This document shows, piece after piece, positions 20,968 through 36,025 of a stretch of DNA of 64,000 nt. Below the pieces are notes generated by a model. The model searched no databases. It was not told where the DNA came from and was given only the letters and a program-made list of their open reading frames with translations. The stretch spans positions 744,001 through 808,000 of the forward strand of contig NC_019973.1 in the NCBI RefSeq assembly GCF_000230995.2, in the 5' to 3' direction. The stretch is from Mesorhizobium australicum WSM2073 (lineage in GTDB: Bacteria > Pseudomonadota > Alphaproteobacteria > Rhizobiales > Rhizobiaceae). The stretch's first letter is position 1; each line of letters starts with the position of its first letter. Made by a program: the position numbers and the translations under genes.

Positions 20968-21325
20968 TTTGTTTTCAGTTTGTGTTAACCATGTTCCGCT
21001 TTTGCAGCCGGGTACAACCGGCGCGCAACCTGTGCGGCTGCCGGTTGCGCCAATGTTCCCGATTTGATCAAGGGTGGCGCCTCAAAGCCGGCGCTGTTCG
21101 CGCTCCCTGAGGTCAGCCGTCTGGGCCAGGACCCAATCCCGGAACAGCTTGATCTTAGGCGTGTTGCGGCGGCTTTCGGAATGCACCGGCCAGTAGCCGC
21201 TCCATGCGCTCACCTCACTTGTTCCTGTAATGTTCTTGCCCTGGGCTGAAATCTGTGGTTGTCTTGCGTTGACGTCGCTCGCGGCCCGTTAAGGGGCAAG
21301 GGCGAGCCGGCAGCGGGGGCAGACA
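20968..21325. other. Intergenic region gshB-comM
   Basis: About 360 nt. Holds an 8-bp inverted repeat (CAACCGGC at 21015 with GCCGGTTG at 21040) without a T-run, and the LysR remnant listed separately at 21082-21208. No intact gene was seen. Confidence 0.5.
21082..21208 (-). pseudogene. Remnant of a LysR-family regulator C terminus
   Basis: The minus frame ending at a TGA (21082-21084) reads AWSGYWPVHSESRRNTPKIK then LFRDWVLAQTADL. This resembles the extreme C terminus of GcvA-like LysR regulators (YWLV-x-R-x3-P-x-I-x-FRDWL). Only about 40 codons remain: no helix-turn-helix, no effector domain and no start. It is a decayed end piece rather than a gene. Confidence 0.6.
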
Positions 21326-21966
21326 ATGGTGGCGCGGGTTCGTACGGTCGCTTTCCAGGGCATCGAGGCAGTGCCGGTCGACGTGCAGGTGATGATCGCG
21401 CCCGGCAAGGTCAACATGCATATCGTCGGCCTGCCAGACAAAGCGGTGGCGGAAAGCCGCGAGCGGGTGCAGGCGGCCTTGCATGCGTCGGGCCTGTCGA
21501 TGCCGTCGAAGAAGGTGACCGTCAACCTGGCGCCCGCCGATCTGCCGAAGGAAGGCAGCCACTACGATCTGCCGATCGCGCTCGGCTTGATGGCAGCCCT
21601 TGGCGCCATTCCGGGCGACATGCTGGCTGGCTATGTCGTGCTGGGCGAGCTGTCGCTCGACGGTACGATCACCGCCGTTGCCGGTGCCTTGCCGGCGGCG
21701 ATCGGCGCCAATGCCGAAGGCAAAGGGCTGATCTGTCCCTTCGCTTGCGGGCCGGAAGCGGCCTGGGCGGGGCGGGAATTCGACATTCTCGCGCCGCGCA
21801 GCCTGATTGCGATCGCCAATCATTTCCGCGGCACACAGGTGCTGTCGCGCCCGGAGGCCGGCATCCGCGCGGCGGCGCGCGACCTGCCCGACCTTGCCGA
21901 CATCAAGGGCCAGGAGACGGCGAAGCGGGCGCTGGAAGTGGCGGCCGCCGGCGGACACAATCTGCT
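21326..21966 (+). pseudogene. comM: comM (yifB) 5' part, interrupted by the element
   Basis: First 213 codons plus two bases of codon 214 of a Mg-chelatase-like AAA+ ATPase. ComM/YifB is a hexameric branch-migration helicase that helps integrate DNA during natural transformation. The fragment has the N-terminal Lon-like domain (VNMHIVGLPDKAVAESRERV, LPKEGSHYDLPIALG) and ends at AAGGHNLL, just before the Walker A loop. Reading continues into the element and stops at 22123, adding about 51 unrelated codons. Joined at CT to 35132, the frame is restored to 510 codons. The fragment alone lacks all ATPase motifs and should be inactive. Confidence 0.95.
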
Positions 21967-21991
21967 CATGCTATGTACGAAAGACCCCCAC
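21940..21991. other. attL: attL, left integration junction
   Basis: Host half-site 21940-21964, crossover dinucleotide CT at 21965-21966, element half-site 21967-21991. The element arm starts CATGCTATG and ends GACCCCCAC; both 9-mers recur as inverse complements in attR. The host arm carries GGCGGAC at 21950-21956, 8 nt from the CT. Confidence 0.9.
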
Positions 21992-22025
21992 TTCAGAAGC
22001 TGGATCAGTTGTTGGAGCGTGGCCT

Positions 22026-22922
22026 TCAGTTGGCATCCTTTCCGCCCTCGGGGCTATCTGGAGAGTTTCGGGCCTCAAGCTGGCGTAATCTATTTCTTAA
22101 GACGCGCCCACGTCCTAAATTGAGTTCTCCCCCAAGGTACTCAGCGACCCTCCTAAGACGATCCGCCACAGGATCAAGTCCTTCAATCTCGGGGTGCTTC
22201 TGCGTCAGAGTTTGTAACTCCACGGCACACTCAAATAAGTCTTCCCACACTCTATGATCTCGATCTGGAAAGTTTCTTTCATTGGCCAATGTCCGCCGTA
22301 GGTAAGAGACTGGCAAAAGCTCTTCTGGTTGCGAAAGCAGCTTTGTTTGGTTTCGATTTAACACAAGAAGTTCTTGAAGAATTGCATCAAAAGCCTCAAT
22401 GCCGCCAGCAGTCCCTTTAGCAGCAGGTACCTTTGTTGTCTCCTCAATACCTGCTTTCAATTCTTGCTCGATGCTGGGCCAGAGACCGTCTATAGATTTC
22501 TCAATGCGATCAACTGGAACAGCCTCATTTCCTACGCGCTCGTTGATGTCTCTGAGTAGCCGCTTGAAATCGCTTATTTCGGCAGTGACCGCGTTGAACT
22601 GCGTAAGCGGTGGCGGAAGTTCGGAGGGTTTGACGCCTACAAGGAAGGGTGCGACTTGGGCATCTCCGACCGATTTAGAAAGCGCTCCAGCCTCGAATAA
22701 GATCCATGGGGCAAGCAGGTTGGACGGAGTTAGGCATAGAATACCAAAACTGTCCTTTGCAAGTTCATCGGTCAAATCGGCTTGCCAACGCCCACCCTTC
22801 TTTAGGTCCTCCGATGAAATGAATGGCCTCACACTCTGCAAGACGACAGGAAGCCATGTGTAGAGTGCTTTGGCGATAAGATGGCTCTTTGGACCTGACC
22901 AACTAATAAAGACGTTTGGCAT
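22026..22922 (-). CDS. Stand-alone TIR-domain protein
   Basis: A 298-residue protein whose N terminus (about 1-130) is a bacterial TIR domain: NVFISWSGPKS, then PFISSEDLKKGGRWQADL, and WILFEAG at 73-79, where Glu77 occupies the catalytic position of NAD-cleaving TIRs. The C-terminal 160 residues are helical and charged with no recognised domain. The ATG at 22922 has GGGGGAAG upstream; the TTG at 22937 is a less likely start. Bacterial TIR proteins often kill infected cells by NAD depletion, and that role is inferred here. Base composition is clearly lower in GC than the flanks. It is 58 nt from attL and reads outward. Confidence 0.82.
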   Translation of the reverse strand: MPNVFISWSGPKSHLIAKALYTWLPVVLQSVRPFISSEDLKKGGRWQADLTDELAKDSFGILCLTPSNLLAPWILFEAGALSKSVGDAQVAPFLVGVKPSELPPPLTQFNAVTAEISDFKRLLRDINERVGNEAVPVDRIEKSIDGLWPSIEQELKAGIEETTKVPAAKGTAGGIEAFDAILQELLVLNRNQTKLLSQPEELLPVSYLRRTLANERNFPDRDHRVWEDLFECAVELQTLTQKHPEIEGLDPVADRLRRVAEYLGGELNLGRGRVLRNRLRQLEARNSPDSPEGGKDAN

Positions 22923-23003
22923 GTTCGCTTCCCCCAAATCTGACGCATTAGCTTATAGGAAGAAACTTGCAAGAGAACCCCTGTGCGAACTTGGCACGCG
23001 AAC

Positions 23004-23540
23004 TATCCAAGGCCATGCGAAACTCCCCGGGGGCGCGATGGACCGAAGTCCTGCCTCATCCATTCTGGGATACGCCGATCGGAGATGATGCCTTGCAGGT
23101 CTCGGGCCATCTTTCGGGCAGATTTGTTTCTTTTGCCCCGGTTCCTGTACCGATGCTCCCCTGCTTGAACGTAGGCCCGAAAGACCTGACGCCGGTCCTC
23201 TCGAGCCAGTCGGATGCCATGCGTCGGTTCGCCTCAGAGGCGATCCAGCGGTATCTTGCAGGGTCCGCCCAGGCGTCACCTTAGCGGTGATCGTGGTGAG
23301 CCCGAGGTCCTGACTGGCTCGGCACGGTGCCATCCGTCAATCAAGATAAAGCCCTTGGTTTCATCCGTTGGGTCCACCCGCGCAATGGTGACCGGAGGAA
23401 CTCGACCCCAGCTTCATTTTTTCCGTGTAGTCCTTGACGTCCCCAGCTTTCGTGTTCGTGCTGATTTGTGTTGCTGGGTCCAGTATGAGGCCATCAAGGC
23501 GAACGCTTGTGATTGCGCGGTTGGTGAGATGATGGCTCAT
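23004..23540 (-). pseudogene. Frameshifted ParB-like N-domain gene
   Basis: No single frame is long, but joining frames gives a coherent ParB/sulfiredoxin-like protein. From ATG 23540: MSHHLTNRAITSVRLDGLIL, DPATQISTNTKAGDVKDYTE, KM, then (shift) AGVEF, (shift) PPVTIARVDPTDETKG, FILIDGWHRAE, (shift) LGLTTITAKVTPGRTLQDT, (shift) YRWIASEANRR, (shift) EDRRQVFRAYVQAGEHRYRN and RKMARDLQGIISDRRIPEWM, ending at a TAG at 23004. The ILIDGWHR block is the conserved ParB-type motif and the tail resembles the EWM/DF end of plasmid ParB-like proteins. At least four single-base indels are needed, so the gene is dead unless the sequence has errors. Its start overlaps the end of the Cys/His gene by 47 nt. Confidence 0.78.
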
Positions 23541-24267
23541 TACGCTTGACGTCCTTCAGTGCTGGTAAGTCGCTTTGCAGTACGTTCGGCAACTCATGCC
23601 TATCAACGATTAATTCGACAGCGCGCTCTATCGCCTCGCCAACGTGCCTCAGGACACGGCCGCGTGACCTCGGGTAGACGTGAAGCTCGGTCGCGCCGGA
23701 ACCGTCTCCCCACCTCTTGTGCGTCCCTGAAGCTATGCGATGAACCAGCTTCGCAGCCTGAACGCGCTTGAACTCCGCCTTTAGGTCCGCTTGGGGGTCG
23801 TCCCGAACAATCATCTCGATCGCGAGCCAAGCCGCCACCACCCTACGAGGGTCCACTGCGGCCTTTCGGAGCCTCGCCCAAGCGGCCTTGGCGCGGTCCT
23901 GAGGAGACAGCCCGCGAAGCCTGAACGCCTCCACATGCGGCCCTGAGGTCTGCATCAAGGTGGCCACGCGGTCGACCGCATTGGCGACGTAGGGGTCTCT
24001 CAGGTTCGCTTCGATCCATGACAGTGCAGCGTCCCGGTAAGGGTTGATCTCTCGAGCTCCGTAGGACGTCTTATAGGGGCTCCCGTGACGCGCGTAGTGA
24101 TCGGCATGGGAGCGGCAGAACCGCGTGTCCAGTCCGTCTCCTGTGCCCGCGCGGGCCGGCCTGCCGCACCCGACCACACGGCATCGGGTGAACATCGCGC
24201 TGGGTTCTGAAGCACGGGATTTGACCTCGGCCCTGCGTTCACGCTTGCGGATCAGCTTCGCAGTCAA
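23494..24267 (-). CDS. Cys/His-rich protein of the element, unknown function
   Basis: Up to 257 residues from a TTG at 24267, or 233 from the ATG at 24195 (MFTRCRVVGCG). A probable zinc site is formed by CRVVGCG ... RFCRSHADHYARHG near residues 29-55 of the long form. The rest is helical and Arg-rich (AAWARLRKAAVDPRRVVAAW), with a basic tail. A DNA-binding or replication role is possible but not shown. It precedes the decayed ParB-like gene in what looks like a five-gene minus-strand block running from the recombinase at 27057. Confidence 0.6.
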   Translation of the reverse strand: MTAKLIRKRERRAEVKSRASEPSAMFTRCRVVGCGRPARAGTGDGLDTRFCRSHADHYARHGSPYKTSYGAREINPYRDAALSWIEANLRDPYVANAVDRVATLMQTSGPHVEAFRLRGLSPQDRAKAAWARLRKAAVDPRRVVAAWLAIEMIVRDDPQADLKAEFKRVQAAKLVHRIASGTHKRWGDGSGATELHVYPRSRGRVLRHVGEAIERAVELIVDRHELPNVLQSDLPALKDVKRNEPSSHQPRNHKRSP

Positions 24268-24429
24268 TCTCGGGTCCCCCTGAGGGGAGCCCCGGGTGAA
24301 TACCTATGGGACAGTGAGGGTTCACATGATGGAGAATGGAGGGAGATCATGGACAGGATAGATACCTAAATGGACATGGGTGTAAGGGACTGAATGTAGC
24401 GATAGCCCTCAGGATGTAGGGGCGATTGG

Positions 24430-25746
24430 TCATAGGGCCTCGCCCCCTGACTGGGTGACAATCCCTTCGACACCTGTCATCCGCCGGAACACGGAGAGCA
24501 TCACCTCCCTCGCCGTCGCAGCGGCGGACGCAGGGACCATCACGGCGTCATGGATCGGTAACGCTGTGATCCCTCTGGCCTTCATGATCCGCAACACCTC
24601 CACCATGATCTGGCTTTCGATGAACTGGACGTCGTGACCAAGTCCGCGATGAAAGCGATCCCTGATCAGTTCGTGCTTCTGCTCGATGGCCGCGACCACC
24701 TCGGCGATCTTGTCACCCCGGCGAAACAGCTTGCGTGTGTCCTGGGGGAACCTTTCAAGAGGCTTCTCGGCGAAGATCATCGCACTCATGACACGCTTGA
24801 TCCCGTCGCGCTGCTGAACGTAGCCCCACAGGTGGTAGAGGTCGTCCGAGGTCGGCTTGTGCCCTGCCATACCGTAGAGGATGCGAGCGCCAGCCTGACC
24901 GTAGTCCAACTCGACGGCCTTCTCGCCGCTGATGCGCAGGCCGGTCTGTCTCTCATCTTTGCGAAGTTGTTGCCAGAACCCGCCGAACAGCCTGCCGCCC
25001 CTGTCAAAGCGACCTTGTGTGAACACCCGCCGCAGTCTTCGGTCCCGCAGGGCGATGGGCGTGTGAGGCCATGCGATGCCAATCCAGTCGAACTTGAGGT
25101 CGGCTTCATGGAGCCACTGGTTGATCTCGGCCATCTGCGTCCGGTAGCCGTCGGTCGCACCATCGTCCGGGTAGTCGAGACGCTCGCCGTCGTCCCAGAA
25201 ATCGGCGCGGTCCTTCAACCTCTTCAGAATGATGGTCTCGCCGGTCTGGTGCGTATCCAGATCGTCAAGGTCGACCTCGTGTTCGGCGATGCGGTCGAGG
25301 AGCCGCTGTCCCGGCCGGATGACAGTGGACCGGGATGCGCCCTGAACGTCGGCGGCGATGTCTTGCTCGACGTATGCCATCTCCGGCTTCGACAAGAGGT
25401 CGAGGATGGCCGGAAACGCTTTGCTGTAGACGGCAGGCCGATAGCGGCTCTTCGCCCCGAGAACACGGTTGGAGCGGGTGACGAAGATGCCTGATCCGCC
25501 GACCAGTTGCCCATGGATGAGGTCCGACAGTATGGCCTCGACCGTTTGCTCGAACGTCTCTTGGTCTCTGGGGCGCCTCTTGTTGCGCCTGAGGCCGAAA
25601 CGATCCTCGTAGGTAGAGAGGAGCCCTATGGCTTCCCTGACGATGCCCTTGGAGTTCTCCGAGGCGGCAAAACGGTGGGGATTGAATGGGCGGTCGCGTC
25701 CAACGTCCTCGTCTTCCGATCCGCCGACTGTAATACGCTGATCCAT
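24430..25746 (-). CDS. Putative family-A DNA polymerase-like protein
   Basis: A 438-residue protein with motifs matching the palm and fingers of family-A polymerases. Motif A is VELDYGQAGARILYG with Asp281 (compare DYSQIELR in Pol I). Motif B is RDGIKRVMS with Arg313, Lys317 and Ser321 in the R-x3-K-x3 spacing of the Pol I O-helix. Motif C is LPIHDAVMV with His399-Asp400 (compare VHDE). A GRLFGGFWQQL block lies at 251-261. No 3'-5' or 5'-3' exonuclease motifs are visible, and the 280-residue N-terminal half is unlike a Pol I thumb. It may copy element DNA or fill gaps. The assignment is from motifs only and needs a profile search. Confidence 0.6.
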   Translation of the reverse strand: MDQRITVGGSEDEDVGRDRPFNPHRFAASENSKGIVREAIGLLSTYEDRFGLRRNKRRPRDQETFEQTVEAILSDLIHGQLVGGSGIFVTRSNRVLGAKSRYRPAVYSKAFPAILDLLSKPEMAYVEQDIAADVQGASRSTVIRPGQRLLDRIAEHEVDLDDLDTHQTGETIILKRLKDRADFWDDGERLDYPDDGATDGYRTQMAEINQWLHEADLKFDWIGIAWPHTPIALRDRRLRRVFTQGRFDRGGRLFGGFWQQLRKDERQTGLRISGEKAVELDYGQAGARILYGMAGHKPTSDDLYHLWGYVQQRDGIKRVMSAMIFAEKPLERFPQDTRKLFRRGDKIAEVVAAIEQKHELIRDRFHRGLGHDVQFIESQIMVEVLRIMKARGITALPIHDAVMVPASAAATAREVMLSVFRRMTGVEGIVTQSGGEAL

Positions 25747-25822
25747 TCACTTCCAAACACGGTCAAACTGGCCACCCCGCACTGACGGGGAGGCGGGCAT
25801 CTATCAGGGAACGACGCGAGCC

Positions 25823-26419
25823 TCAAACAACAAATGATGGTCCATCAGCGTCGGGGCCAATCCAGTCATTCTGTTTGCGTGTCGAAGCGCGGCTGCGGAT
25901 GATAGCGGCGAGGTCGTCAGCCTCTCTCATCAGCTTGAACACCTCGGAGCGGATTTCAAGAAATCGACTTAGCTCGGCGTGCGTGTGGTGCCTCATGTCG
26001 TCAGAGGTAATTGGCGCGGGGTCTGCCATGCTGAGGAACCTCTCGAAGTTGGCCACCCGCTCATGCTCGTCAGGCGGCGCCAGCAATCGCAGCCAGTCGC
26101 GCCATGGCTTCTGTCCCTTCCTCTCGTTGCAGGTGCGGCAACATGGGACGAGGTTCCTTATCCGGTGCCCGTGCCCTGAGAACTCTCCAGCGATCACACG
26201 GTTGAACACATGATCCCATGTTTGGGCCGTGTGCCCACAGTACGCGCAGACCAAGTCGCCATCAGGGTCCTGACCGAGGTCGCGAAGGGCGGCTGCAACC
26301 TCTTCTCGCGAGAACTCGTCATACGGCGCCAGGGCGGAAGCGAAGGCATTGGAGAACGTACTCTTCCGCTGCATGATGCTCTGGTGTCGGAGGTACTTCT
26401 TGACGCTGTCGAGCCTCAT
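25823..26419 (-). CDS. HNH endonuclease family protein
   Basis: A 198-residue protein. The HNH core is CAYCGHTAQTWDHVFNR (about 58-74) followed by LVPCCRTCNERKGQKPW (about 90-106): two CxxC zinc pairs, catalytic DH and the closing N-x3-K of HNH enzymes. The C-terminal part is helical. The start overlaps the recombinase stop by 4 nt (ATGA), so translation is coupled. The role could be element mobility, replication or host-DNA attack; sequence does not decide. Confidence 0.85.
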   Translation of the reverse strand: MRLDSVKKYLRHQSIMQRKSTFSNAFASALAPYDEFSREEVAAALRDLGQDPDGDLVCAYCGHTAQTWDHVFNRVIAGEFSGHGHRIRNLVPCCRTCNERKGQKPWRDWLRLLAPPDEHERVANFERFLSMADPAPITSDDMRHHTHAELSRFLEIRSEVFKLMREADDLAAIIRSRASTRKQNDWIGPDADGPSFVV

Positions 26420-27057
26420 GACGCACGGCCCTCGGGCTCGTCGAGAGGGACGAGGCGCTTAGCCAGCTTTGCAAGCGTCGACCGGGAACAGTTGGTCGCC
26501 CTCACTATGGTGTTCCAGCTCTGCCCTTTCCGCAGCATTTCCAAGATGGCCTGGTTGCGCTCTGCGTCCTCGGGGCGACCCTTCATGCGCCCCTCGGCCT
26601 TCGCCTTGGCGATCCCTTGAGCCTGCCTGCGGCGTCGGTCGTCATAGTCCTTCCGGGCGATGGCGGCGAGCATGTCGAGCAGCATCCCGTTGATCGCGTC
26701 GAACATGCGCCCGGTGAATGCGTCCTCGCTCTTCATCATCATGTGCGAGGTCGGCAAGTCCAGCGCCACGACCTTCACCTCTCGGTCCTTGATCTCTCGC
26801 TTGAGTTGGTCCCAGTCCTTGTCAGACAGGCGGCTCAGCCGGTCGACCTGTTCGGTGAGCAGAATGTCGCCGGGCTTGCTGTCCCTCAGCAACCGAAACA
26901 GCTCCGGCCTGTGCAATGATGCGCCGCTCTCGTTCTCCTCGTAGGTGGCCGCGAGGGTCAGCCCTCGCTCCTTGCAGAACGCCTCCAGGTCTCCTCGGGC
27001 GCGCCCCGCGTCCTGTTCCTTAGTCGAGGCCCTGAGGTAGGCTCGAATGAATGTCAT
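26416..27057 (-). CDS. Small serine recombinase (resolvase/invertase family)
   Basis: A 213-residue recombinase. Nucleophile Ser11 sits in AYLRASTKEQ; later motifs are EENESGASLHRPELFRLL, ILLTEQVDRLSRL and VALDLPTSHMM, and a C-terminal helix-turn-helix (WNTIVRATNCSRSTLAKL) binds DNA. The ATG at 27057 has GGAGG five nt upstream. It is of resolvase size and distinct from the large integrase at the right end. Repeated GGTTCG half-sites lie directly upstream, suggesting a res site or self-regulation. Confidence 0.93.
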   Translation of the reverse strand: MTFIRAYLRASTKEQDAGRARGDLEAFCKERGLTLAATYEENESGASLHRPELFRLLRDSKPGDILLTEQVDRLSRLSDKDWDQLKREIKDREVKVVALDLPTSHMMMKSEDAFTGRMFDAINGMLLDMLAAIARKDYDDRRRRQAQGIAKAKAEGRMKGRPEDAERNQAILEMLRKGQSWNTIVRATNCSRSTLAKLAKRLVPLDEPEGRAS

Positions 27058-27067
27058 GGTGCCCTCC

Positions 27068-27178
27068 AGTTCGGTTTGACTGGTTCGCTAATAGATGGTT
27101 CGGTATGACTGGTCAAGGGGCATTTATCGAACCAGCCTCGATCCGGTTCGGAAAGGGCACACCTGAGAGAACCAGTCG
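27068..27178. promoter_or_regulatory. Cluster of GGTTCG half-sites, candidate res site/operator
   Basis: Within 110 nt upstream of the small recombinase are six related words in both orientations: GACTGGTTCG (27079), TGGTTCGG (27096), GACTGGTC (27107), TCGAACCAG (27127), CCGGTTCGG (27143) and GAACCAGTC (27169). This arrangement is typical of subsites bound by resolvase dimers, which also repress their own gene. Confidence 0.6.
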
Positions 27179-27186
27179 TGAGGGCG

Positions 27187-28290
27187 TCAGTTGAAAAGTC
27201 GCCGCTTCAGTTCTGTACAGGCCCCTTCAAGACCCGGGAACATCGACGCGGCAGTAATACCCATGAGGCGAAGCTCCCGCTCGACGGTTTCGCGTTCAGA
27301 CCTCAGCAGATCAAACACCCGCAGGAAACGATAGCCAGTGTCCGCCTCTCTGGCTCGGATGTACGTCTCGATGTCGTCGACGTTCGTCACAGTCGAGAGC
27401 GACTGTTGGGGTATGGCCCGCTCGTTCTCGATCGCCAGCGCCTCAAGAAGGGAAAAATGCGGTCTACACAGCGTCAGGTACTGAAGTTGCGGATAGCGGG
27501 CTGCCCACTCTCTGCGGTCGAACATCAGGATGCGAACCTTGCGGCTGTCTGCGCTGGGACGCGGATCGCCCGTGAAGGCAAAATACGCGGCAACAAATGG
27601 CGAATGGGACCAGTCCAAGAGAGGTGTTGGAAATCCGTGGTGCTGGGCAAGGTTGAGAAACGCCCCCATCTGGCGCGGGTCGTTGAGATCGAACAAGTGC
27701 CGCGTCTGAGCGGTCAGAACACGGTGAAGCATCGGGACGTCCTTGAAGAGGTAAAGCAAAAGGTCCTTGCGCCGAGTTCTGTGAAACGCCGTCCTGAGCC
27801 TATGCCCCATGCTCTGACCACGAAAAATGAACCGATCGGGCTCAAGGTTGGTCGCGAACTTCTTGAACTGCGCCCAGGTCCTGATGCCTCGTTCGCCCTT
27901 ATAGGTCGAGGGCTTGGCGGCCTTGCTGGGCCATAGGGTGGCTGTTCCTTGCGTTCCCGCACTGGAGGTCCAGGTGATGTTCAAGGTGCGCTGCCCAGCC
28001 TGCAGGGTCATTTGCACAGTCGCGGGGAAGGTGACCCCGGGGAAACGCGCGGTTGCCTCTGCCAAGGGCATCAAGCGCGCCTCGGTGGGATGGAGTAGCT
28101 CGACCGGAAGGGTAGCCGTTTGCCGAGCGACGTTGCCGGGAAGGTCGAACCTCACCAGAACTCCCGGTAGGCCGGAAGCGTCGTAGGCATAGGCCGAACC
28201 CACGACGCGCTGGCCTTGCCTATCGGCATCGAACACCACCTCGCCGCTGTTTGTGCCTTGGAAACTCCCCTGCCACTGTCCGTACAGCAT
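27187..28290 (-). CDS. FRG-domain protein with N-terminal beta domain
   Basis: A 367-residue protein from the ATG at 28290, preceded by a G-rich ribosome site; the open frame reaches 28383 but the extra part is low complexity. Residues about 1-125 look like a beta-sandwich (GQWQGSFQGTNSGEVVF, VVGSAYAYD). The FRG domain follows: FIFRGQ at about 154-159 and LAQHHGFPTPLLDWSHSPF at about 214-232, the name-giving and best conserved blocks. FRG proteins are frequent in defence islands, but their activity is not well established. Transcribed divergently from the plus-strand cargo operon. Confidence 0.8.
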   Translation of the reverse strand: MLYGQWQGSFQGTNSGEVVFDADRQGQRVVGSAYAYDASGLPGVLVRFDLPGNVARQTATLPVELLHPTEARLMPLAEATARFPGVTFPATVQMTLQAGQRTLNITWTSSAGTQGTATLWPSKAAKPSTYKGERGIRTWAQFKKFATNLEPDRFIFRGQSMGHRLRTAFHRTRRKDLLLYLFKDVPMLHRVLTAQTRHLFDLNDPRQMGAFLNLAQHHGFPTPLLDWSHSPFVAAYFAFTGDPRPSADSRKVRILMFDRREWAARYPQLQYLTLCRPHFSLLEALAIENERAIPQQSLSTVTNVDDIETYIRAREADTGYRFLRVFDLLRSERETVERELRLMGITAASMFPGLEGACTELKRRLFN

Positions 28291-28705
28291 TCCCACCCCC
28301 GCATCTCCCGGGACCATTGTGTCCCATAGTCGGCAACTCCGACAAGCCCTCGACCCAGGTGGGCAGGGGTACGGGGGGATCATTCCGCGTGCCGTTCATT
28401 CGATCCCCCGCTCGAAAGTTTGCGCCAAACATTTCGACCTCCCAAATCGAGCCCGATGGCAAACAAAAGGCGGGTGGAGGGTCTGGGACCTTAACTCCGA
28501 CCGGCCGGATGAACATGGAGGTCACCCTGCGGCTGACCTGACGCAGCTCTACGCGGCCGACCTTATCTCGATGTTGACCACTCCCAAAACGAAACGCAGG
28601 ATCACCAGAGGGCACATCGCCTAAGAGTTGCCCCAGACTGTTCATTGTGCAGTTGATCCGTCGTACAAACTTGCTACTACTGTTGCGCTTTGGCGGGGCC
28701 GAACA
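28291..28705. other. Divergent intergenic region inside the element
   Basis: About 415 nt between the FRG gene (minus) and the first exported-protein gene (plus). Short open frames on both strands overlap one another and none has a convincing start or recognisable sequence. It must hold the promoters of both operons; I could not pick a clear -35/-10 pair. Confidence 0.45.
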
Positions 28706-29338
28706 ATGACCAAGAAACTGATACTGCTTTGGGCTATTGCGCTGCTGCTTTTTTCTGATCCGGTTCGCGCGGAGAATAACTGTTCCTGCCCAACCGTTAC
28801 GGCCGACGGCAGGGGAGACAGCAGTTGTTCGGCGGCTGAAGCCTCGGGTCAGTGTACGATCGACTTTAACATCTTTCCGCCTGAGGCCGAGCAGCGTGCG
28901 TTCGATCTCCTGAAATCAGCCAGCAAAACTCCTTTGTCTTTGCCGCCTGCCGGCGAGAACAGCGTCGATGCCATGTATACGGCCAGTTCAAAAGGTCAAA
29001 CCGTCGAGGTGCTGCTCGTGTATCTCGCGGTTGCTGCTGCTGCCCAAGCTCAGTCCCATCCTGGGACCATCGATACACAGGCTCTCGGAGAGGTGGCAAC
29101 GCTGGTCAGCGACGTGGGCAAAGATGCCCTCAAACAGGCCTTCAGCGGCGAGACGGCCAAAGAGTTCTCTGCAGTGAAGGCACTGCCCCCGGGGGACATT
29201 AAGAGCCTCGTCATACTTAGTGACCAAGGCCTCACTGTTTCGCCGGGCTGCGTCGAAGTGAATAAGAACGGACTTTGGGTGATGTTCAAGGCCAACTGGA
29301 GCCCTGCGGCTCTGGCGCCGGGCTGCGGGGCTAAGTGA
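28706..29338 (+). CDS. Exported protein of unknown function, cargo gene 1
   Basis: A 210-residue protein. The ATG at 28706 gives MTKKLILLWAIALLLFSDPV then RAEN, a clean Sec signal peptide (basic n-region, Leu-rich h-region, cleavage after ALL..VRA). The mature part starts with three cysteines (NCSCP, SSCSA, QCTID) and has a helical Ala-rich centre (VYLAVAAAAQAQ). No family recognised. Stop and next start overlap in TGATG, so it is coupled with the following gene. First gene of a six-gene plus-strand run. Confidence 0.7.
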   Translation: MTKKLILLWAIALLLFSDPVRAENNCSCPTVTADGRGDSSCSAAEASGQCTIDFNIFPPEAEQRAFDLLKSASKTPLSLPPAGENSVDAMYTASSKGQTVEVLLVYLAVAAAAQAQSHPGTIDTQALGEVATLVSDVGKDALKQAFSGETAKEFSAVKALPPGDIKSLVILSDQGLTVSPGCVEVNKNGLWVMFKANWSPAALAPGCGAK

Positions 29339-30012
29339 TGTCTGGCCTCCAGCAGTTGGTGGGTTTGATCGTGTTGGCCTTGATTGCAGCAGGGGTGATC
29401 ATTGCGGTGGACTACCGCACCGTTCAACCCAAAGCACCCGTCGATGACCGGGTCCTGGCCTGTTACGCCCTAATTCCAGCAGATCGGCAGGCAGGCCTCC
29501 ACTTCAAATACGAGCCCGACACCAAAACCGCCACAGTGGATGTAGACGCCGAGGAGACGACCAAAAGGCCGACCAATGAGCAGTTGGATACTTTCATCCA
29601 GTGCCTTCATGTGTTCATCAAAGATGTGCGGTTGGCCACCGCGAGCCAACCAGCGGCCCCGCTTGGCGAGGTTGCAGATCACTGGTCTGCTTCGGGGCAA
29701 GTTGGCCTAAAGCTGACACTGATGCCGGGCAGCAATAACGAGGTTCTGAATAACCTTCGTTTTGGCCCGGCCAGCGGCAACAAGTCCGACATCGTCGCGG
29801 CGTGGTGCAAGGGAGCTGCAGCCTGCGTCAAATGCGACCCACAAGAGCCTACCCCCCAAACACTCGAGGTCCTCGTCAGCTTGCTGCCGGGCAGCCACAC
29901 GAACAAGGTTCAGATGCCAGGGTCTTGGGAGACGCCAAACCAGGCAAAGCCGTGGCAGCTTGTGGACCGGAAGGGTCGGAGGTTCTTCTACGAGTGCGGG
30001 CAAGCGAGTTAA
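29338..30012 (+). CDS. Membrane-anchored protein of unknown function, cargo gene 2
   Basis: A 224-residue protein from the ATG at 29338 (a GTG at 29335 is also in frame). One N-terminal transmembrane helix (LVGLIVLALIAAGVIIAV, about 7-24) is followed by a soluble domain of about 200 residues outside the membrane. This contains four to six cysteines, including CKGAAACVKC. No family recognised. Coupled to the exported protein before it; probably the two act together in the periplasm. An 85-nt gap separates it from the 98-aa gene. Confidence 0.7.
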   Translation: MSGLQQLVGLIVLALIAAGVIIAVDYRTVQPKAPVDDRVLACYALIPADRQAGLHFKYEPDTKTATVDVDAEETTKRPTNEQLDTFIQCLHVFIKDVRLATASQPAAPLGEVADHWSASGQVGLKLTLMPGSNNEVLNNLRFGPASGNKSDIVAAWCKGAAACVKCDPQEPTPQTLEVLVSLLPGSHTNKVQMPGSWETPNQAKPWQLVDRKGRRFFYECGQAS

Positions 30013-30097
30013 CGAGCTGTCGCGCCTGACAGTTCAGCGGGTCTCTGCTTCTGTCTTGAGCGTTGGTATGCGACATTGCTAATTCGGAGGGGGTACG

Positions 30098-30394
30098 ATG
30101 ATCAAAATAACAGGGCTCGACAAGCTGACCAAGACCCTTGAGCAAGCTCAAAGGGCTCTCAAGGAAGTCGACGGCGAACTGGGGACCGTGAGCTTCGATC
30201 CGCAAGACCCGGCGAGTATTGAAGCCGCGATACAGGCCGTCGAGACAATGATTGACCAGCGACTTGGTCGCTATGAGACGAACCCCGTGATTGCACCTCT
30301 GATCGAAGGAATGAAGGAGCAATACAGGCAGGGGATCTTGGACCGTGCCGCTGAAGCAAGACTTGGGACCGGCGGAGAAGTCGATGGCGACTGA
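30098..30394 (+). CDS. Small helical protein, partner of the TIR-like effector
   Basis: A 98-residue acidic helical protein (KLTKTLEQAQRALKEV, IEAAIQAVETMIDQRLGRYE) with a strong ribosome site GGAGGGGG just before ATG 30098. Its last 11 nt overlap the start of the TIR-like gene, a tight coupling typical of partner proteins such as antitoxin-effector or sensor-effector pairs. It has no transmembrane segment and no recognised domain. A regulatory role is inferred from the arrangement only. Confidence 0.7.
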   Translation: MIKITGLDKLTKTLEQAQRALKEVDGELGTVSFDPQDPASIEAAIQAVETMIDQRLGRYETNPVIAPLIEGMKEQYRQGILDRAAEARLGTGGEVDGD

Positions 30395-31319
30395 CCTCTT
30401 CAAGGAGATGAAAAACGCGCTGCTTGATCTCCAGTCATCACAGTTTCAAACATACCAACGGCCCCTCAAGACACTGGCCCGCCTGTTGCAAAATCCCGAC
30501 CTTGCCGAGGTCAACGCCAAACTGACCGAAGGCCTCGATCTCGACAAGTTCCTTGGGGCCCAAACGACGCGCGGGGGCCTCGTCGGCTCCGATACCTTCG
30601 ATTGGCCAGACGACCCCCGAGAGGCGCTTGGTCTGACGCTACTGATGATCTTGAGGTTCGCCGAGAAGCCCGAGTTGATGCTCACCTTCGGCCATAGCTA
30701 CTATCACTCTGGCAACAAACTCAGCGACGCTGTCCACTCAGTAGTGCGGCAACTGCTGATCCCGTTCTTGCGTGACTACAAGTCCTACGTGGAAGGCGGG
30801 GACGACGGCAGCGTCCGGTTGGTGTTGCCGGCAGCTCATAACGGCCGGGAGGCGCGATTGACTGGGGCGGGCTCAAACAAGGTCTTCATCGTTCACGGTC
30901 ACGATGATGACGCTCTTCATGGCCTCGCAAGGTTTCTTGAGAGGCTCAAACTGGAGCCGATTGTCCTGCGAGAGCAGCCCAACCAAGGGCGAACGATCAT
31001 CGAGAAGTACGAAGACATCGCCGGTGAGGTAGGGTTTGCATTGGTGCTGCTTACGCCCGACGACGTCGGTGCAGCGAAGGCCGCGACTGAACAGAACCAG
31101 CGGGCCCGTCAGAACGTGATCTTTGAGCTTGGTTATTTTGCCGGACACCTCGGCCGTGGACGGGTATGCCTGCTCCGCAAAGGCAGCGTTGAAATACCGT
31201 CTGACCTCTATGGCGTTCTGTACATTGACCTGGACCCCTCGGAGGGGTGGAAGTCAAAACTCGTTCAGGAAATGAAGGCAGCGAAACTGGACTTTGACGC
31301 CAACCGCATGTTCGGCTGA
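30384..31319 (+). CDS. TIR-like (PF10137-type) nucleotide-binding effector
   Basis: A 311-residue protein from ATG 30384. Residues about 1-160 are helical with an unrecognised domain (FGHSYYHSGNKLSDAVHSVV). Residues about 165-305 form the TIR-like nucleotide-binding domain seen in CBASS/Pycsar TIR effectors (PF10137): KVFIVHGHDDDALHGLARFL, TIIEKYED, LLTPDDVG, and ARQNVIFELGYFAGHLGRGR, in which Glu248 is the likely NAD-cleaving residue. No cyclase gene (CD-NTase or Pycsar) is nearby, so the trigger is not the usual cyclic nucleotide unless it comes from elsewhere. Paired with the 98-aa gene. Confidence 0.82.
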   Translation: MATDLFKEMKNALLDLQSSQFQTYQRPLKTLARLLQNPDLAEVNAKLTEGLDLDKFLGAQTTRGGLVGSDTFDWPDDPREALGLTLLMILRFAEKPELMLTFGHSYYHSGNKLSDAVHSVVRQLLIPFLRDYKSYVEGGDDGSVRLVLPAAHNGREARLTGAGSNKVFIVHGHDDDALHGLARFLERLKLEPIVLREQPNQGRTIIEKYEDIAGEVGFALVLLTPDDVGAAKAATEQNQRARQNVIFELGYFAGHLGRGRVCLLRKGSVEIPSDLYGVLYIDLDPSEGWKSKLVQEMKAAKLDFDANRMFG

Positions 31320-31380
31320 GCATCTTGTTCACACATAGCCGGCTACCCAGTATTGTGGCGGCAGGGGGTGGGCAAACGAA

Positions 31381-32193
31381 ATGGAGCCCGAGGACGACCT
31401 GAAGTCCCGTATCGAGGCTGCACTGGTTCGCGGCCGAGTGAGCCAATGGCAACGGCAATTCCTCCTCGACATGCACGCGCGGCTGGCGAAGTACGGTCCA
31501 CGCACCCGGCTGAGCGCAAAGCAGTGGGCAAAGCTCTATGAGATCATAGGCCCCGCACCGCCAAGCACTAACGAGCCGAGGCATGCGCGCCCGAATAGGC
31601 CCTCGTCGTCGCCGCACTGGCGACCTCGACGGTCGCGAAGCCCACTCGCTCGCGAGGCTCGGTACTTTGCGGCGAGGTTCACCAGAGCCTTCGGCTTTGC
31701 CCTGGCGCTGGTCGTCGGGTCACTGATCTATTCATACGTCGAGAAGGGCGGACACATCTCTTGGCCCACGATGCCGTCCTTCGCGAGATCAGGCACAGGA
31801 GACAGGGTGCCGCTTGCCAGAACGGAGTTCACCATTACGGACGGCGACACCATCCGCCTCGACGGCTCCGCGAAAGGAACCCGGCTGGTAGGCTTCAATG
31901 CGCCGGAGAGCATCGAGCCGAGGTGCGCTGTTGAGGCAGACCTTGGCCAGAGAGCGAAGGCGCGCCTCACAGAGCTGGTGGCGTCCGCCAAGCTCGAACT
32001 GCAGATGATCCCGTGTTCCTGCGCAACTGGCACTGAGGGCACCGACCGCTGTAACTATGGGCGAAGTTGCGGCTCGCTGTTCTCCAACGGGCAGGACGTG
32101 GGTGACGTGCTGATGTCGGAGGGGTTGGCTGTACCGTTCATCTGTGGCGCTACAAGCTGCCCGCCAACGCCTCGGCCGTGGTGTGCATCCTGA
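31381..32193 (+). CDS. Membrane-anchored staphylococcal-nuclease-like protein
   Basis: A 270-residue protein. N-terminal 100 residues are basic and helical and probably cytoplasmic. One transmembrane helix lies at about 103-120 (FGFALALVVGSLIYSYV). The SNase-like domain (about 148-262) has the Asp pair in ITDGDTIRLDG, Arg168 in TRLVGFNAPE, Glu176, and Arg228 in NYGRSCG, matching the Arg-Glu-Arg catalytic set in order. The C terminus has CGATSCPPTPRPWC, near the usual end of small exported SNases. It would cut nucleic acid outside the membrane, for example incoming phage DNA; this is inferred. Confidence 0.8.
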   Translation: MEPEDDLKSRIEAALVRGRVSQWQRQFLLDMHARLAKYGPRTRLSAKQWAKLYEIIGPAPPSTNEPRHARPNRPSSSPHWRPRRSRSPLAREARYFAARFTRAFGFALALVVGSLIYSYVEKGGHISWPTMPSFARSGTGDRVPLARTEFTITDGDTIRLDGSAKGTRLVGFNAPESIEPRCAVEADLGQRAKARLTELVASAKLELQMIPCSCATGTEGTDRCNYGRSCGSLFSNGQDVGDVLMSEGLAVPFICGATSCPPTPRPWCAS

Positions 32194-32207
32194 GAGCAAC
32201 ACAAATC

Positions 32208-33518
32208 ATGGGCAAAATCGCACAACCATCCTTCAAGCCGAAACGACGAGCTGACCGGACGGTCCTGAGGAAGAGGCGTTATCGCGGTAAGCTTGCGGCC
32301 AATGGGCAGGCGGTCGATGTCCGGTTCTCCCTCTCCGCAAGAGCGGATTGCAGGCTCCGGTTCAAGTTCGACGCTTTGAATGGGCGAAGCTTCCTAATTC
32401 TCGCGCAGACCATGGGTAAAGCAGGACAGCCAAGCGAGCGCCTGAGCCTCGATGCATACACCAAGTCGGGGGACCGCATTACCTCCGACACTTTGTCCCT
32501 GACGGGATACCGGGTGAACGATGATGGCCATTTCATAGAAGTGAACTACCTGACTGCGACGGTCTCGCAAGTCATGAAGGATGCGGCACCTAAGCCCATG
32601 CTGAGGCTCTGGTTTCGTGGGTTCTCATCCTTCAGGAACTCCCCTACCAAAACGCCTCTGGGGACGTTGGCTGTCTGGGGTTCCTCTGACGGCTCACGCG
32701 CCGACGAGATGTCGGGGTGTGTGACGCTCATGGCACCCATCGAGGCGCCTGGGTCAAATTGGGTTGCCGAAGCAGATCAGTTCCTTCGTCACATGCATCA
32801 GGGTCTCGCGTTTGCTCACGGCGCGCGCCTCCAGACGCCCAGACTGGACTACGTCGAAGGCAAGACCTTCAATACCACGTTCTTCAGCGGTGTCGGCTAT
32901 CAACAGGAGTTCTCGGTACAACACTTCTTGAACCATGACCCCTTCATTGCGGCATTGGTCCGGCGCTACTTCGAGGAAGGTCCAGTTCCTGAAGTTATTT
33001 GGATAGGTCTACGATGGATGCAGACCGGCACGACCGTCAACGAGGTTCGGTTCCTGACCGCAATGACCGCGCTGGAAACGATCATCGAAACCGTCCTGCC
33101 TGCAAAGAAAGGAAGCACAGTCCCCAAATCCGAGTTCAACGCTCTCCGCGATAAGCTTGTGGAAGTGGTCGATAAGGAGGACGGTCTTACCGGCGACCAA
33201 AAGGAAATCTTCACTGAGCGTATCAAGGGCATCAACCAGAAGCCGTTGTCGGCCAAAATCGATGCCTTGTTCGATCACTACGGGATGTCACGGCAAGACT
33301 TCGGTATGGATGAGATTGTGTCGCTGGTGAAGCTACGGAACACGCTCGTCCATACGGGTGTGTTGCCTGACGAGATTGACATCTGGGACCGGATCATTCT
33401 GGTGCGCGAACTCGTCACGCGGATTTTGTTGAGCGAGATCGGCTTCAAGGGTCGCTATTGCTGCTACATCGGGGGACAGCACGACAGGGATTTCCCGGAG
33501 ACGCCCCAGCTTCCCTAA
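32208..33518 (+). CDS. ApeA-like HEPN-domain protein
   Basis: A 436-residue protein from ATG 32208, 14 nt after the SNase stop. The N-terminal half (about 1-210) is beta-rich and resembles the N domain of ApeA-type proteins. The C-terminal half (about 215-410) is helical, and RNTLVH at 377-382 is a match to the R-x4-6-H catalytic motif of HEPN ribonucleases; YQQEFSVQHF and TALETIIETVLP are further typical segments. ApeA cleaves tRNA upon phage infection in known systems; the same role here is an inference. It converges with the integrase, 1 nt between their stops. Confidence 0.75.
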   Translation: MGKIAQPSFKPKRRADRTVLRKRRYRGKLAANGQAVDVRFSLSARADCRLRFKFDALNGRSFLILAQTMGKAGQPSERLSLDAYTKSGDRITSDTLSLTGYRVNDDGHFIEVNYLTATVSQVMKDAAPKPMLRLWFRGFSSFRNSPTKTPLGTLAVWGSSDGSRADEMSGCVTLMAPIEAPGSNWVAEADQFLRHMHQGLAFAHGARLQTPRLDYVEGKTFNTTFFSGVGYQQEFSVQHFLNHDPFIAALVRRYFEEGPVPEVIWIGLRWMQTGTTVNEVRFLTAMTALETIIETVLPAKKGSTVPKSEFNALRDKLVEVVDKEDGLTGDQKEIFTERIKGINQKPLSAKIDALFDHYGMSRQDFGMDEIVSLVKLRNTLVHTGVLPDEIDIWDRIILVRELVTRILLSEIGFKGRYCCYIGGQHDRDFPETPQLP

Positions 33519-33519
33519 C

Positions 33520-35088
33520 TCAAGCGTCCTCTTTGGCCCACGCATACGTGATCCCGGTCGTTTCCCCCGGGGCATGCTTCCAATGGAACCGGAGACGTCC
33601 GCTCAGCCAGTCCACCTCAACATTGGTGAAGAGCTGCCTCAGAGTGGCGTTGATCAGCGCGATGTCTCGTTGCTCGGCTTCAGCCGCGTCGACAAACTGC
33701 GCTGCAGTCACCTGGACGCGGTTTGTAAGGGTGTCAGCTATGCGCCGCTCAAGGTCCGCGATGGTGCGCTGGATACCCTCCCTCGCCGCTTCGTTTTGGC
33801 GGAGCTTGTCAAGCAGCGCCCGTGATGACTGCTCCCCCAACTTCGTGATGGCTCCAACGAGCAGTTCAATCTCATCGCCCACTGCCATGTCGGCGGCGGT
33901 CGCCCTCTCCCATTCGCTCTGCAACGCCTCGTCGGTCGCCGGCAGCGACGCATTTAGCCATCCAGCGTTCCCGATGATTGCCGCCTCGATACCGTCGATC
34001 CGAACCTTGTGGCGATAGTCACATCCGCCCTTGGCCTTCGCCGTGGTGCAAACCAAGTAGGGCCTGCCGCCCTTCTTGCCGCCCTTGTTCACACGGGTCA
34101 TGGTGGAGCCACAGCCAGGGCACTTAGCGAGCCCCGCGAGGATGTTTGCTGGCCCCCCGCTGTTGCTCTCTCGGACGGCTCGCCCGCTGGAAAGGGCATT
34201 GACCCTCTCGAACACCTCACGGTCCACCACCGCCGGGAAATACCCCTCCACGGTCTCGGTCGGAATACGCTGTCTCTTCGCACCGACCGTCTCGACGCGG
34301 TGAGGGGTGAACGCTCCGATGGTCGAGGCGTCGGAGAGCATCTTCTTGATGTATGTCCGGTGCCAGTGGCTACCCCGACCAAACACCGGGACGCCTTCCT
34401 TGTTGAAGGTCTCGGCAATCGTATGCTGGCCCTTGCCCGCCAGCGTCATGTCAAACACCCTGCGCACGACATCGGCCCGCTCCGGTATCAGGTCAAAGCC
34501 TGTTCGGTCGTCCCTCAGGCGCATCCATCCGGGGCACAGCGCTGACAACGGCTTGATGGCCGCATTCTTCCGTTTGTTTCCCCATGCATCGCGCAGTCGC
34601 CGTGCCTTGGTCGCGCTCTCTTCGTTCGCCCTTGCAAAGTACATGATCGACGCGAACAGCATCATAGTGTCTTGGTTGAGCGTTTCCTGGGTGTACGTTC
34701 TGCCGTCGCTAAGCGTGACGACATTCACCCCCGCATCGACGATGTCTTCCAACGTTCGAAGCGCCTTGCGCGGTGCCTCTCTGGATACCCGGTCCAAGTT
34801 CTCCACCAGAAGGTATGATCCTTGGGGCACGTCCCCGGATTTCACATACGAGAGGAACTCGCCCAGCATACCGTCTGCCACATTGCCACCCCGGTAGGCG
34901 GACTTCCCCAAGTCGTGGAAGGTGAACTTGGTGTCCATCTCAAAGCCATGCAGCGCAGCATACTTCTCTGCCGCCTCGGTTTGTCGTCGGAAGCTATCCC
35001 CCTTGGCTTGCTCCGGGGTTGAGAAGCGGACGTAGGAGTAAGCTTTGGGGCGGTTGGCAAGGTTGGCGCGAGGGGTGTGCTTGATCAT
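33520..35088 (-). CDS. int: Large serine integrase of the element
   Basis: A 522-residue large serine recombinase. The catalytic domain begins AYSYVRFSTPEQAKG with nucleophile Ser23, followed by LLVENLDRVSREAP. The recombinase domain (about 165-300) contains the GKGQHTIAETFNKEGVP block. A zinc ribbon (CPGCGSTMTRV then CTTAKAKGGCDYRH, about 328-365) and a C-terminal coiled-coil-like part complete it. Start at ATG 35088 with AAGG upstream, only 43 nt from the CT core; the longer frame to 35268 would read into comM and is rejected. It should catalyse attP x attB insertion; a directionality factor for excision was not identified. Confidence 0.96.
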   Translation of the reverse strand: MIKHTPRANLANRPKAYSYVRFSTPEQAKGDSFRRQTEAAEKYAALHGFEMDTKFTFHDLGKSAYRGGNVADGMLGEFLSYVKSGDVPQGSYLLVENLDRVSREAPRKALRTLEDIVDAGVNVVTLSDGRTYTQETLNQDTMMLFASIMYFARANEESATKARRLRDAWGNKRKNAAIKPLSALCPGWMRLRDDRTGFDLIPERADVVRRVFDMTLAGKGQHTIAETFNKEGVPVFGRGSHWHRTYIKKMLSDASTIGAFTPHRVETVGAKRQRIPTETVEGYFPAVVDREVFERVNALSSGRAVRESNSGGPANILAGLAKCPGCGSTMTRVNKGGKKGGRPYLVCTTAKAKGGCDYRHKVRIDGIEAAIIGNAGWLNASLPATDEALQSEWERATAADMAVGDEIELLVGAITKLGEQSSRALLDKLRQNEAAREGIQRTIADLERRIADTLTNRVQVTAAQFVDAAEAEQRDIALINATLRQLFTNVEVDWLSGRLRFHWKHAPGETTGITYAWAKEDA

Positions 35089-35106
35089 GTCGAGGGCCTT
35101 ATATAG

Positions 35107-35158
35107 GTGGGGGTCCTCTGTCCATAGCATGCTGATGATCGGTCCGCCAGGCTCAGGC
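35107..35158. other. attR: attR, right integration junction
   Basis: Element half-site 35107-35131 (begins GTGGGGGTC, ends CATAGCATG), crossover CT at 35132-35133, host half-site from 35134. The only bases common with attL around the core are TGCT (35130-35133 and 21963-21966). The host arm has GTCCGCC at 35142-35148, 8 nt from the CT, mirroring GGCGGAC in attL. Confidence 0.9.
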
Positions 35159-36025
35159 AAATCGATGCTAGCGCAGCGCCTGCCGTCGATCCTGCCGCCA
35201 CTGGCGCCGAAGGAACTGCTCGAAGTCTCGATGATCGCCTCGGTGGCTGGCGAGCTCGGCGAAGGCAAGCTGACCGACCGGCGGCCGTTCCGCGCCCCGC
35301 ACCATTCGGCCTCGATGGCGGCGATGGTGGGCGGCGGCCTGCGCGCGCGGCCGGGCGAGGTGTCGCTCGCTCATCACGGCGTGCTGTTCCTCGACGAGTT
35401 CCCCGAATTCACGCCGCAGACGCTCGATGCGCTGCGCCAGCCGCTTGAAACCGGCGACTGCATGATCGCACGGGCCAACCATCGCGTCACCTATCCGGCC
35501 CGCATCCAGCTGGTGGCGGCGATGAACCCGTGCCGCTGCGGCATGGCCGGCGAACCGGGTTATCGCTGCCTGCGCGGCGATCGTTGCCGCACCGATTACC
35601 AGGCGCGCATTTCAGGTCCGCTGCTCGACCGCATCGATCTCAGGATCGAAGTGCCGGCGGTCTCGGCCAGCGACCTGATCCGGCCGGATCGAGCGGAAAA
35701 GAGCGCCGACGTGGCGTCGCGCGTGGCGCGTGCCCGCACCATCCAGCGCGAGCGTTTCGAGCGGCTCGGCGTCAACAGCGCCACCACCAACGCGCATTGT
35801 TCTCCTGCCGTCATCGAGACGATCGCCATGCCGGACGCCGCAGGCCTGTCGCTGCTCAAGGATGCCAGCGAAAAACTCGCCTTTTCGGCGCGGGCCTACC
35901 ACCGGGTGCTCAAAGTGGCGCGCACGCTCGCCGACCTCGACGCCAGCGAATGTGTCGGCCGCATCCATCTGGCCGAAGCGATTTCCTATCGCATGAGTTC
36001 GGAGCGCATGGCGCAGGCGGCGTAG
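35132..36025 (+). pseudogene. comM: comM (yifB) 3' part, interrupted by the element
   Basis: The last 297 codons of ComM. It begins LMIGPPGSGKSMLAQRLPSI, the Walker A loop, then has LFLDEFPEF (Walker B), AMNPCRCG (sensor-like), a Cys-containing insert (CRCGMAGEPGYRCLRGDRC) and the C-terminal helical part ending RMAQAA. An ATG at 35128 region or 35045 on the element side lets some of it be read as an open frame, but without the N-terminal domain a working helicase is unlikely. Joined to 21966 it makes a full 510-residue ComM, the normal family length. Confidence 0.95.

Follow-up and report, generated by a model that had tools for sequence, protein, structure and literature searches.

The window analysed here, a stretch of 64,000 nucleotides from Mesorhizobium australicum WSM2073 (contig NC_019973.1, positions 744,001 to 808,000), carries an island of about 13.2 kb (window 21965-35137) that interrupts comM (YifB) and encodes a small polymerase and a zinc-finger-like partner, the two genes with which we are mainly concerned:

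24430..25746, minus strand: TV-Pol/divPolA2-like family-A polymerase, 438 amino acids, ATG start; match to phrog_4756 (E=3.9e-25)
23494..24267, minus strand: partner protein, 257 amino acids, with an N-terminal zinc-finger-like motif (C-x4-C-x16-C-x2-H-x5-RHG) and a helical domain with a beta hairpin

Translated from the plus strand, 24430..25746 has stops inside the frame. The minus-strand product looks intact and is very probably a family-A polymerase of the TV-Pol/divPolA2 kind that lacks an exonuclease. As to its function, we infer that the polymerase and its partner may serve priming or replication, a role to which we give an even chance.

The motifs from which a sequence-only reading had recognised a polymerase are at the positions it quoted: D281 of motif A within ELDYGQAGARIL, R313-x3-K317 of motif B within RDGIKRVMS, and the HD of motif C at 399-400 within LPIHDAV. 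Their order is that of Pol I, as had been stated, but the Pol I spacing also claimed for them did not hold, as only 119 residues separate D281 from D400, a compact arrangement compared with the approximately 177 residues between the corresponding motif A and motif C Asp of Klenow. In an alignment of 114 homologues, selected from the listed homologous proteins and the translated loci, R252, G255, G256, F257, W258, D281, Y304, R313, K317, E377, S378, L396, H399 and D400 are among the invariant columns (114/114), and since the mean column identity is 30%, this conservation is more than chance would give. D302 is present in 113 of the 114 and, judging by its order among the motifs, may be the conserved fingers Asp of the TV-Pol description. 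The polymerase core occupies approximately residues 165-438, preceded by an N-terminal region (about 1-165). In the predicted model, R313 and K317 sit in a fingers helix (310-325), the arginine hairpin to which the invariant R252 belongs is formed by strands 238-242 and 250-255, and helices 30-50 and 59-81 are candidates for the two antiparallel helices that make up the thumb of TV-Pol. The family-A superfamily is marked by a palm whose motifs A and C carry the catalytic Asp and by a fingers helix with RxxxK, and the protein shows both; its predicted core keeps the two Asp and has no exonuclease. The earlier proposal of a minimal family-A polymerase without exonuclease is supported by conservation and by the predicted core; neither a structure without a palm nor homologues devoid of D281 and D400 came to light. 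Relatives that consist of the RRM only and lack catalytic residues occur in similar Bacillota islands (PMC10061031), and a dead palm retained for DNA binding could be imagined here too, but the invariance of the metal-binding Asp pair and of R313 and K317 in all 114 sequences makes it highly improbable.

The same sequence-only reading knew of no described system with this set, a view overtaken by TV-Pol (2008) and divPolA2 (2024) and by UniRef, in which some homologues are already named 'DNA-directed DNA polymerase family A palm domain' proteins. TV-Pol enzymes have been described beside gamma-delta resolvases, lambda-type integrases and restriction-modification operons (Iyer, Abhiman and Aravind 2008, PMC2579912). 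The window polymerase resembles them in its minimal family-A core, arginine-bearing hairpin, two Asp, RxxxK fingers and lack of a nuclease, and its relatives resemble a subset of them in lying on elements with a resolvase or integrase and restriction neighbours (PMC2579912). The one search for homology to a named TV-Pol, made in Microcystis phage LMM01 and lacking a positive control, was empty and uninformative. Phages of Rheinheimera (barba) and others encode divPolA2, which, like the window polymerase, has a palm without exonuclease and an N-terminal domain of unknown fold and gives structural matches to both DNA and RNA polymerases (PMC11348598); it differs in belonging to phage genomes and not to integrative islands. 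Homology between the two is indicated indirectly, through the members of phrog_4756, which matches the window polymerase as well as phage proteins, and through structure. A search with the phrog_4756 member of Vibrio phage 1.121.O yielded 177 phage records, of which 114 are from Rheinheimera, and in a BFVD structure search with the window polymerase a Barba31A protein ranked fifth (E 2.2e-19). No Pfam family, PF00476 (DNA_pol_A) included, matched the window polymerase at E<=1, none matched the homologues L040 and L102 at E<=0.1, and NCBIfam (over cut-off) and PDB sequences returned nothing. Of the comparisons that the sequence-only reading had proposed, that with the PF00476 model gave no match, and that with T7-like RNA polymerases a shared fold of the core and no significant profile similarity.

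The active site departs from Pol I at the sugar. In motif A the core DYGQxxxR lines up, with no gap, with DYSQIELR of Pol I, in which the Glu five residues past the motif A Asp is E710, the sugar steric gate. Among the 114 homologues the equivalent position (286) is G in 39, N in 30, A in 15, F in 11, T in 8, S in 3, C, M and L in 2 each, and Q and Y in 1 each, and never Glu. The F762 equivalent (position 321) is N in 79, S in 29, A in 3, G in 2 and R in 1; the Y766 equivalent is F in 101, N in 5, S and H in 3 each and M in 2; and the residue after the HD of motif C is A in 76, G in 20, S in 16 and C in 2. We infer from these residues that sugar choice may be relaxed, because without the steric-gate Glu ribonucleotides are predicted to be used better than by Pol I, which would fit a primase-like start. 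CcPol, by comparison, retains the equivalents of both E710 and F762 (PMC7581432), whereas the family studied here has neither. According to the authors of that 2020 eLife paper on CcPol, no other TV-Pol member had to their knowledge been biochemically characterised (PMC7581432).

The class of polymerase is already known; of the two proteins it is the partner that most merits attention. A motif search found a zinc-finger neighbour at 34 of the 62 loci with context on both sides (36/72 overall; some loci are not independent of one another, since both L001 and L116 are the window and one genome may be represented twice), and the motif was absent from the 5099 other open reading frames of a mechanically called background. 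Partners encoded downstream and upstream of the polymerase are homologous (hhalign probability 98.2), and one profile places a partner beside the polymerase in 36 of 74 fetched loci, downstream in 20 and upstream in 16. All 50 matches of the partner profile in the searched loci adjoin a polymerase, a figure that is biased because the loci were fetched via the polymerase, many with short flanks. In the reverse test across the genus, 22 of 146 genomes had a partner, and 7 of 10 chosen regions had it without a polymerase, so that it is not tied to this enzyme. In six such regions we noted the gene that follows the partner (L202 7659-8507, L204 7606-8460, L199 7639-8574, L200 7927-8802, L203 7266-8381 and L201 8686-9783). 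The three of them scanned against Pfam matched ParB_N (E=0.0074), HTH_38 (E=4.1e-5) and HTH_20 (E=0.061), all under the cut-offs, and the remaining three resemble, by eye, the ParB_N-matching or the HTH_20-matching protein. These weak matches suggest varied DNA-binding-like proteins, and the partner may be a DNA-recognising factor that serves several enzymes. No zinc finger was fused to the polymerase in 30 polymerase frames from the genome-search loci or in proteins P0001-P0139, nor did any open reading frame match both profiles; the motif was likewise not seen in the single phage downstream neighbour examined. We found no description of such a pairing in the literature, in a search that was not aimed at zinc fingers and whose coverage excluded most subscription journals. 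Alignments of the TV-PolN and C3RHD domains belong to the supplement of PMC2579912, and it is our guess that C3RHD could be the zinc finger of the partner.

The partner is predicted to be helical with one two-stranded hairpin (pLDDT 87.6), and on this model an OB fold was rejected. In a VIA structure search its four top entries were T7 RNA polymerases, weakly matched within residues ~37-275, a likeness to the T7 N-terminal domain that we treat as a lead from the predicted model. It raises the view that the pair is a split single-subunit RNA polymerase, in which catalysis would fall to the 438-residue protein and the zinc-finger protein would be an N-terminal promoter-binding domain that has become a separate chain: a T7 enzyme in two pieces (cf. 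N4 gp15/gp16), whose task would be either transcription of the island or the synthesis of RNA primers at the island's origin. The core fold is predicted to be in common with that of T7-like RNA polymerases, and the two-gene layout recalls the gp15/gp16 pair of N4 RNA polymerase II. The likeness is not supported by Foldseek or profile comparison, however; the partner profile was negative against the T7 N-terminal domain and N4 gp15 and found nothing convincing in PDB and Pfam, only weak matches to the cysteine motif, and the GR motif, which in N4 lies in gp15 (by eye), has its counterpart here in the polymerase. We regard the split enzyme as a rather doubtful possibility, and its more specific form, a two-gene relative of T7 RNA polymerase on bacterial integrative islands that lacks the sugar steric gate and acts as island-specific RNA polymerase or RNA primase, as unlikely. 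Other Foldseek and VIA matches of the partner (nuclear receptors, globins, cyclins, phycobiliproteins) were taken as chance.

The remaining features of the island and its junctions are as follows:

21326..21970, plus strand: 5' part of comM (YifB/Mg-chelatase-like), the interrupted host gene; ChlI domain, and tblastn with the intact comM of L107
21965..21970, no strand: left comM junction, CTCATG; inverted-repeat-like end at 21967-21991
22026..22937, minus strand: cargo, TIR-domain protein (PADLOC TIR-TM, E=1.3e-73)
25823..26419, minus strand: HNH endonuclease-like protein, 198 amino acids (HNH_5, E=1.2e-5, just under the Pfam cut-off)
26416..27057, minus strand: small serine recombinase of resolvase/invertase type, 213 amino acids (Pfam Resolvase, E=3.5e-22; HTH_7, E=7.2e-8)
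27187..28383, minus strand: cargo, FRG-domain protein, candidate defence family PDC-S15 (Pfam and PADLOC)
30345..31319, plus strand: cargo, CAP12/Pycsar-type TIR protein (Pfam, E=3e-39; PDC-S35, E=3.9e-71)
31381..32193, plus strand: cargo, weak match to a PADLOC model described as SNc+LTD (E=2.7e-4; no Pfam at E<=0.1)
32178..33518, plus strand: cargo, Apea-like HEPN protein (E=5.4e-5, just under cut-off)
33520..35046, minus strand: large serine recombinase of the right end, probably the integrase (Resolvase, Recombinase and Zn_ribbon_recom over the Pfam cut-offs)
35132..36022, plus strand: 3' part of comM (tblastn with L107 comM, and blastn)
35132..35137, no strand: right comM junction, CTGATG; inverted-repeat-like end at 35107-35131

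With tblastn, the intact comM of L107 aligns in two pieces (21311-21973 and 35093-36022), and blastn sets the joints at 21970 and 35132. The two inverted-repeat-like ends are identical at 21 of 25 bases. The open frame of the large serine recombinase runs to 35268, its start being inferred from alignment with relatives, and this enzyme most likely inserted the island. The integrative element with recombinase genes anticipated by the sequence-only reading is thus present, with a small and a large serine recombinase. Of four comM islands seen, those of the window and of Ahrensia marina (L038) carry the polymerase and those of L202 and L203 do not, so that it is not required for insertion into comM; both comM parts were seen in L202 and L038, and only the 5' part in L203. 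Truncated comM matches occur in several other genomes of the genus. The gene appears to be a hot spot for islands.

The defence-like neighbours of the polymerase in this island and in others, its optional presence in sister islands, and the suggestion that Rice makes for PolA-SSB pairs (PMC10061031) would all accord with the polymerase and partner being themselves a defence module carried as cargo. We find this quite unlikely, since the polymerase had no PADLOC match at E<=0.01, recurs with recombinases in islands of differing cargo and has homologues in phages. Two adjacent cargo frames at window 28628-30012 (236 and 225 amino acids) had no Pfam or PADLOC match, and a similar-looking pair lies in L198 (10959-12262).

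The genes for the HNH-like protein and the small serine recombinase lie directly upstream of the polymerase, as had been noted, but HNH as a general companion was not upheld: BLASTP found the window HNH in three sequences, namely the window, its copy L001, and L031. Genes within at most 10 kb of the polymerase were clustered for the window and 74 fetched loci. Of these 75 loci, 50 have serine recombinases (a cluster that mixes small and large enzymes), 38 and 17 have members of two tyrosine integrase clusters, 10-12 have type I restriction genes and 5 have RNase H; the clustering used mechanically chosen open reading frames, and some small 'genes' are false. In L031 the polymerase is 88% identical and its neighbours are again the HNH, the small serine recombinase, the partner and the CAP12-TIR protein, yet this locus has a tyrosine integrase and the large serine recombinase of the window was not found in it. 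The polymerase module thus occurs in islands with different integrases. An RNase H gene stands beside or overlaps the polymerase gene in L059 (11411-11890), L087 (9363-9878) and L103 (1-552), confirmed by Pfam for L059 and L103. Such neighbours would fit RNA-primed synthesis, indirectly; their adjoining the polymerase gene in a few loci also speaks for a polymerase that fills gaps or repairs island ends or recombination intermediates, and repair is one of the options listed by the divPolA2 authors (PMC11348598). Serine integrases, as is generally known, need no DNA synthesis, and a host Pol I, encoded elsewhere in the window genome, is present, which leaves this explanation improbable.

Pipolins, like the island here, are mobile elements with their own polymerase, piPolB, which is of family B and not of family A. 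The piPolB enzyme makes primers, and PolA-SSB primases are a precedent for DNA priming by a family-A polymerase that has a small partner (PMC10061031); the present system is like CcPol-MP/PolA-SSB in combining a family-A polymerase with a small second protein on recombinase-bearing islands with conflict genes (PMC7581432, PMC10061031). If the polymerase and its partner do serve priming or replication, they would prime new strands and then extend them, acting on island DNA that is single-stranded or has been excised, while the island passes through a plasmid-like stage; the large serine recombinase may integrate and excise the island, and the small one may resolve multimers. The ParB-like neighbours of the partner would fit plasmid-like upkeep, indirectly. 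Several observations weigh against this reading. The sister comM islands L202 and L203 lack the polymerase, and no recognisable partner was found in 38 of 74 fetched loci, in some owing to contig ends. The partner of PolA-SSB is an OB fold (PMC10061031), whereas that in the window is modelled as zinc-finger/helical. Proven PolA-SSB primases adjoin a D5- or DUF927-type helicase (PMC10061031) and many TV-Pol a D5 helicase (PMC2579912), but neither type was among the 25 families listed, out of 140 matched, for 91 of the 255 proteins that are candidate neighbours; Helicase_C was found in 2 of the 91. Against 28 alphaproteobacterial Pol I domains, the alignment of the polymerase profile was confined to 34 columns at motif A (probability 2.3), and the profile had no significant similarity to T7-like RNA polymerase or N4 gp16. 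The set comprises 114 relatives that can be aligned, has a sugar gate unlike that of Pol I or CcPol in its active site, and comes with a partner encoded alongside; should the latter confer de novo initiation or promoter recognition, it would bear on the origin of primases and single-subunit RNA polymerases from family-A enzymes.

A sequence search of approximately 5.8 billion proteins gave 430 relatives of the polymerase among 8000 scored candidates, and a profile search gave 502, of which 120 were listed in each case. Counting the window's own genome, matches were found with the single protein in 23 of 385 genomes sampled from the class and with the profile in 19 of 146 of the genus. The 72 loci of a scan of genome contigs belong, by their titles, mainly to Alphaproteobacteria and also include Beta- and Gammaproteobacteria, Desulfovibrio relatives, Nitrospira and a Planctomycetota bin. 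By tblastn, the window polymerase matched no phage record and one plasmid, and another homologue matched three plasmids. Among viral contigs, a first scan was empty and a profile scan gave two loci. The source record of L103, a 26-kb virus contig, encodes a palm-only homologue and a separate frame of 824 amino acids that matches DNA_pol_A.
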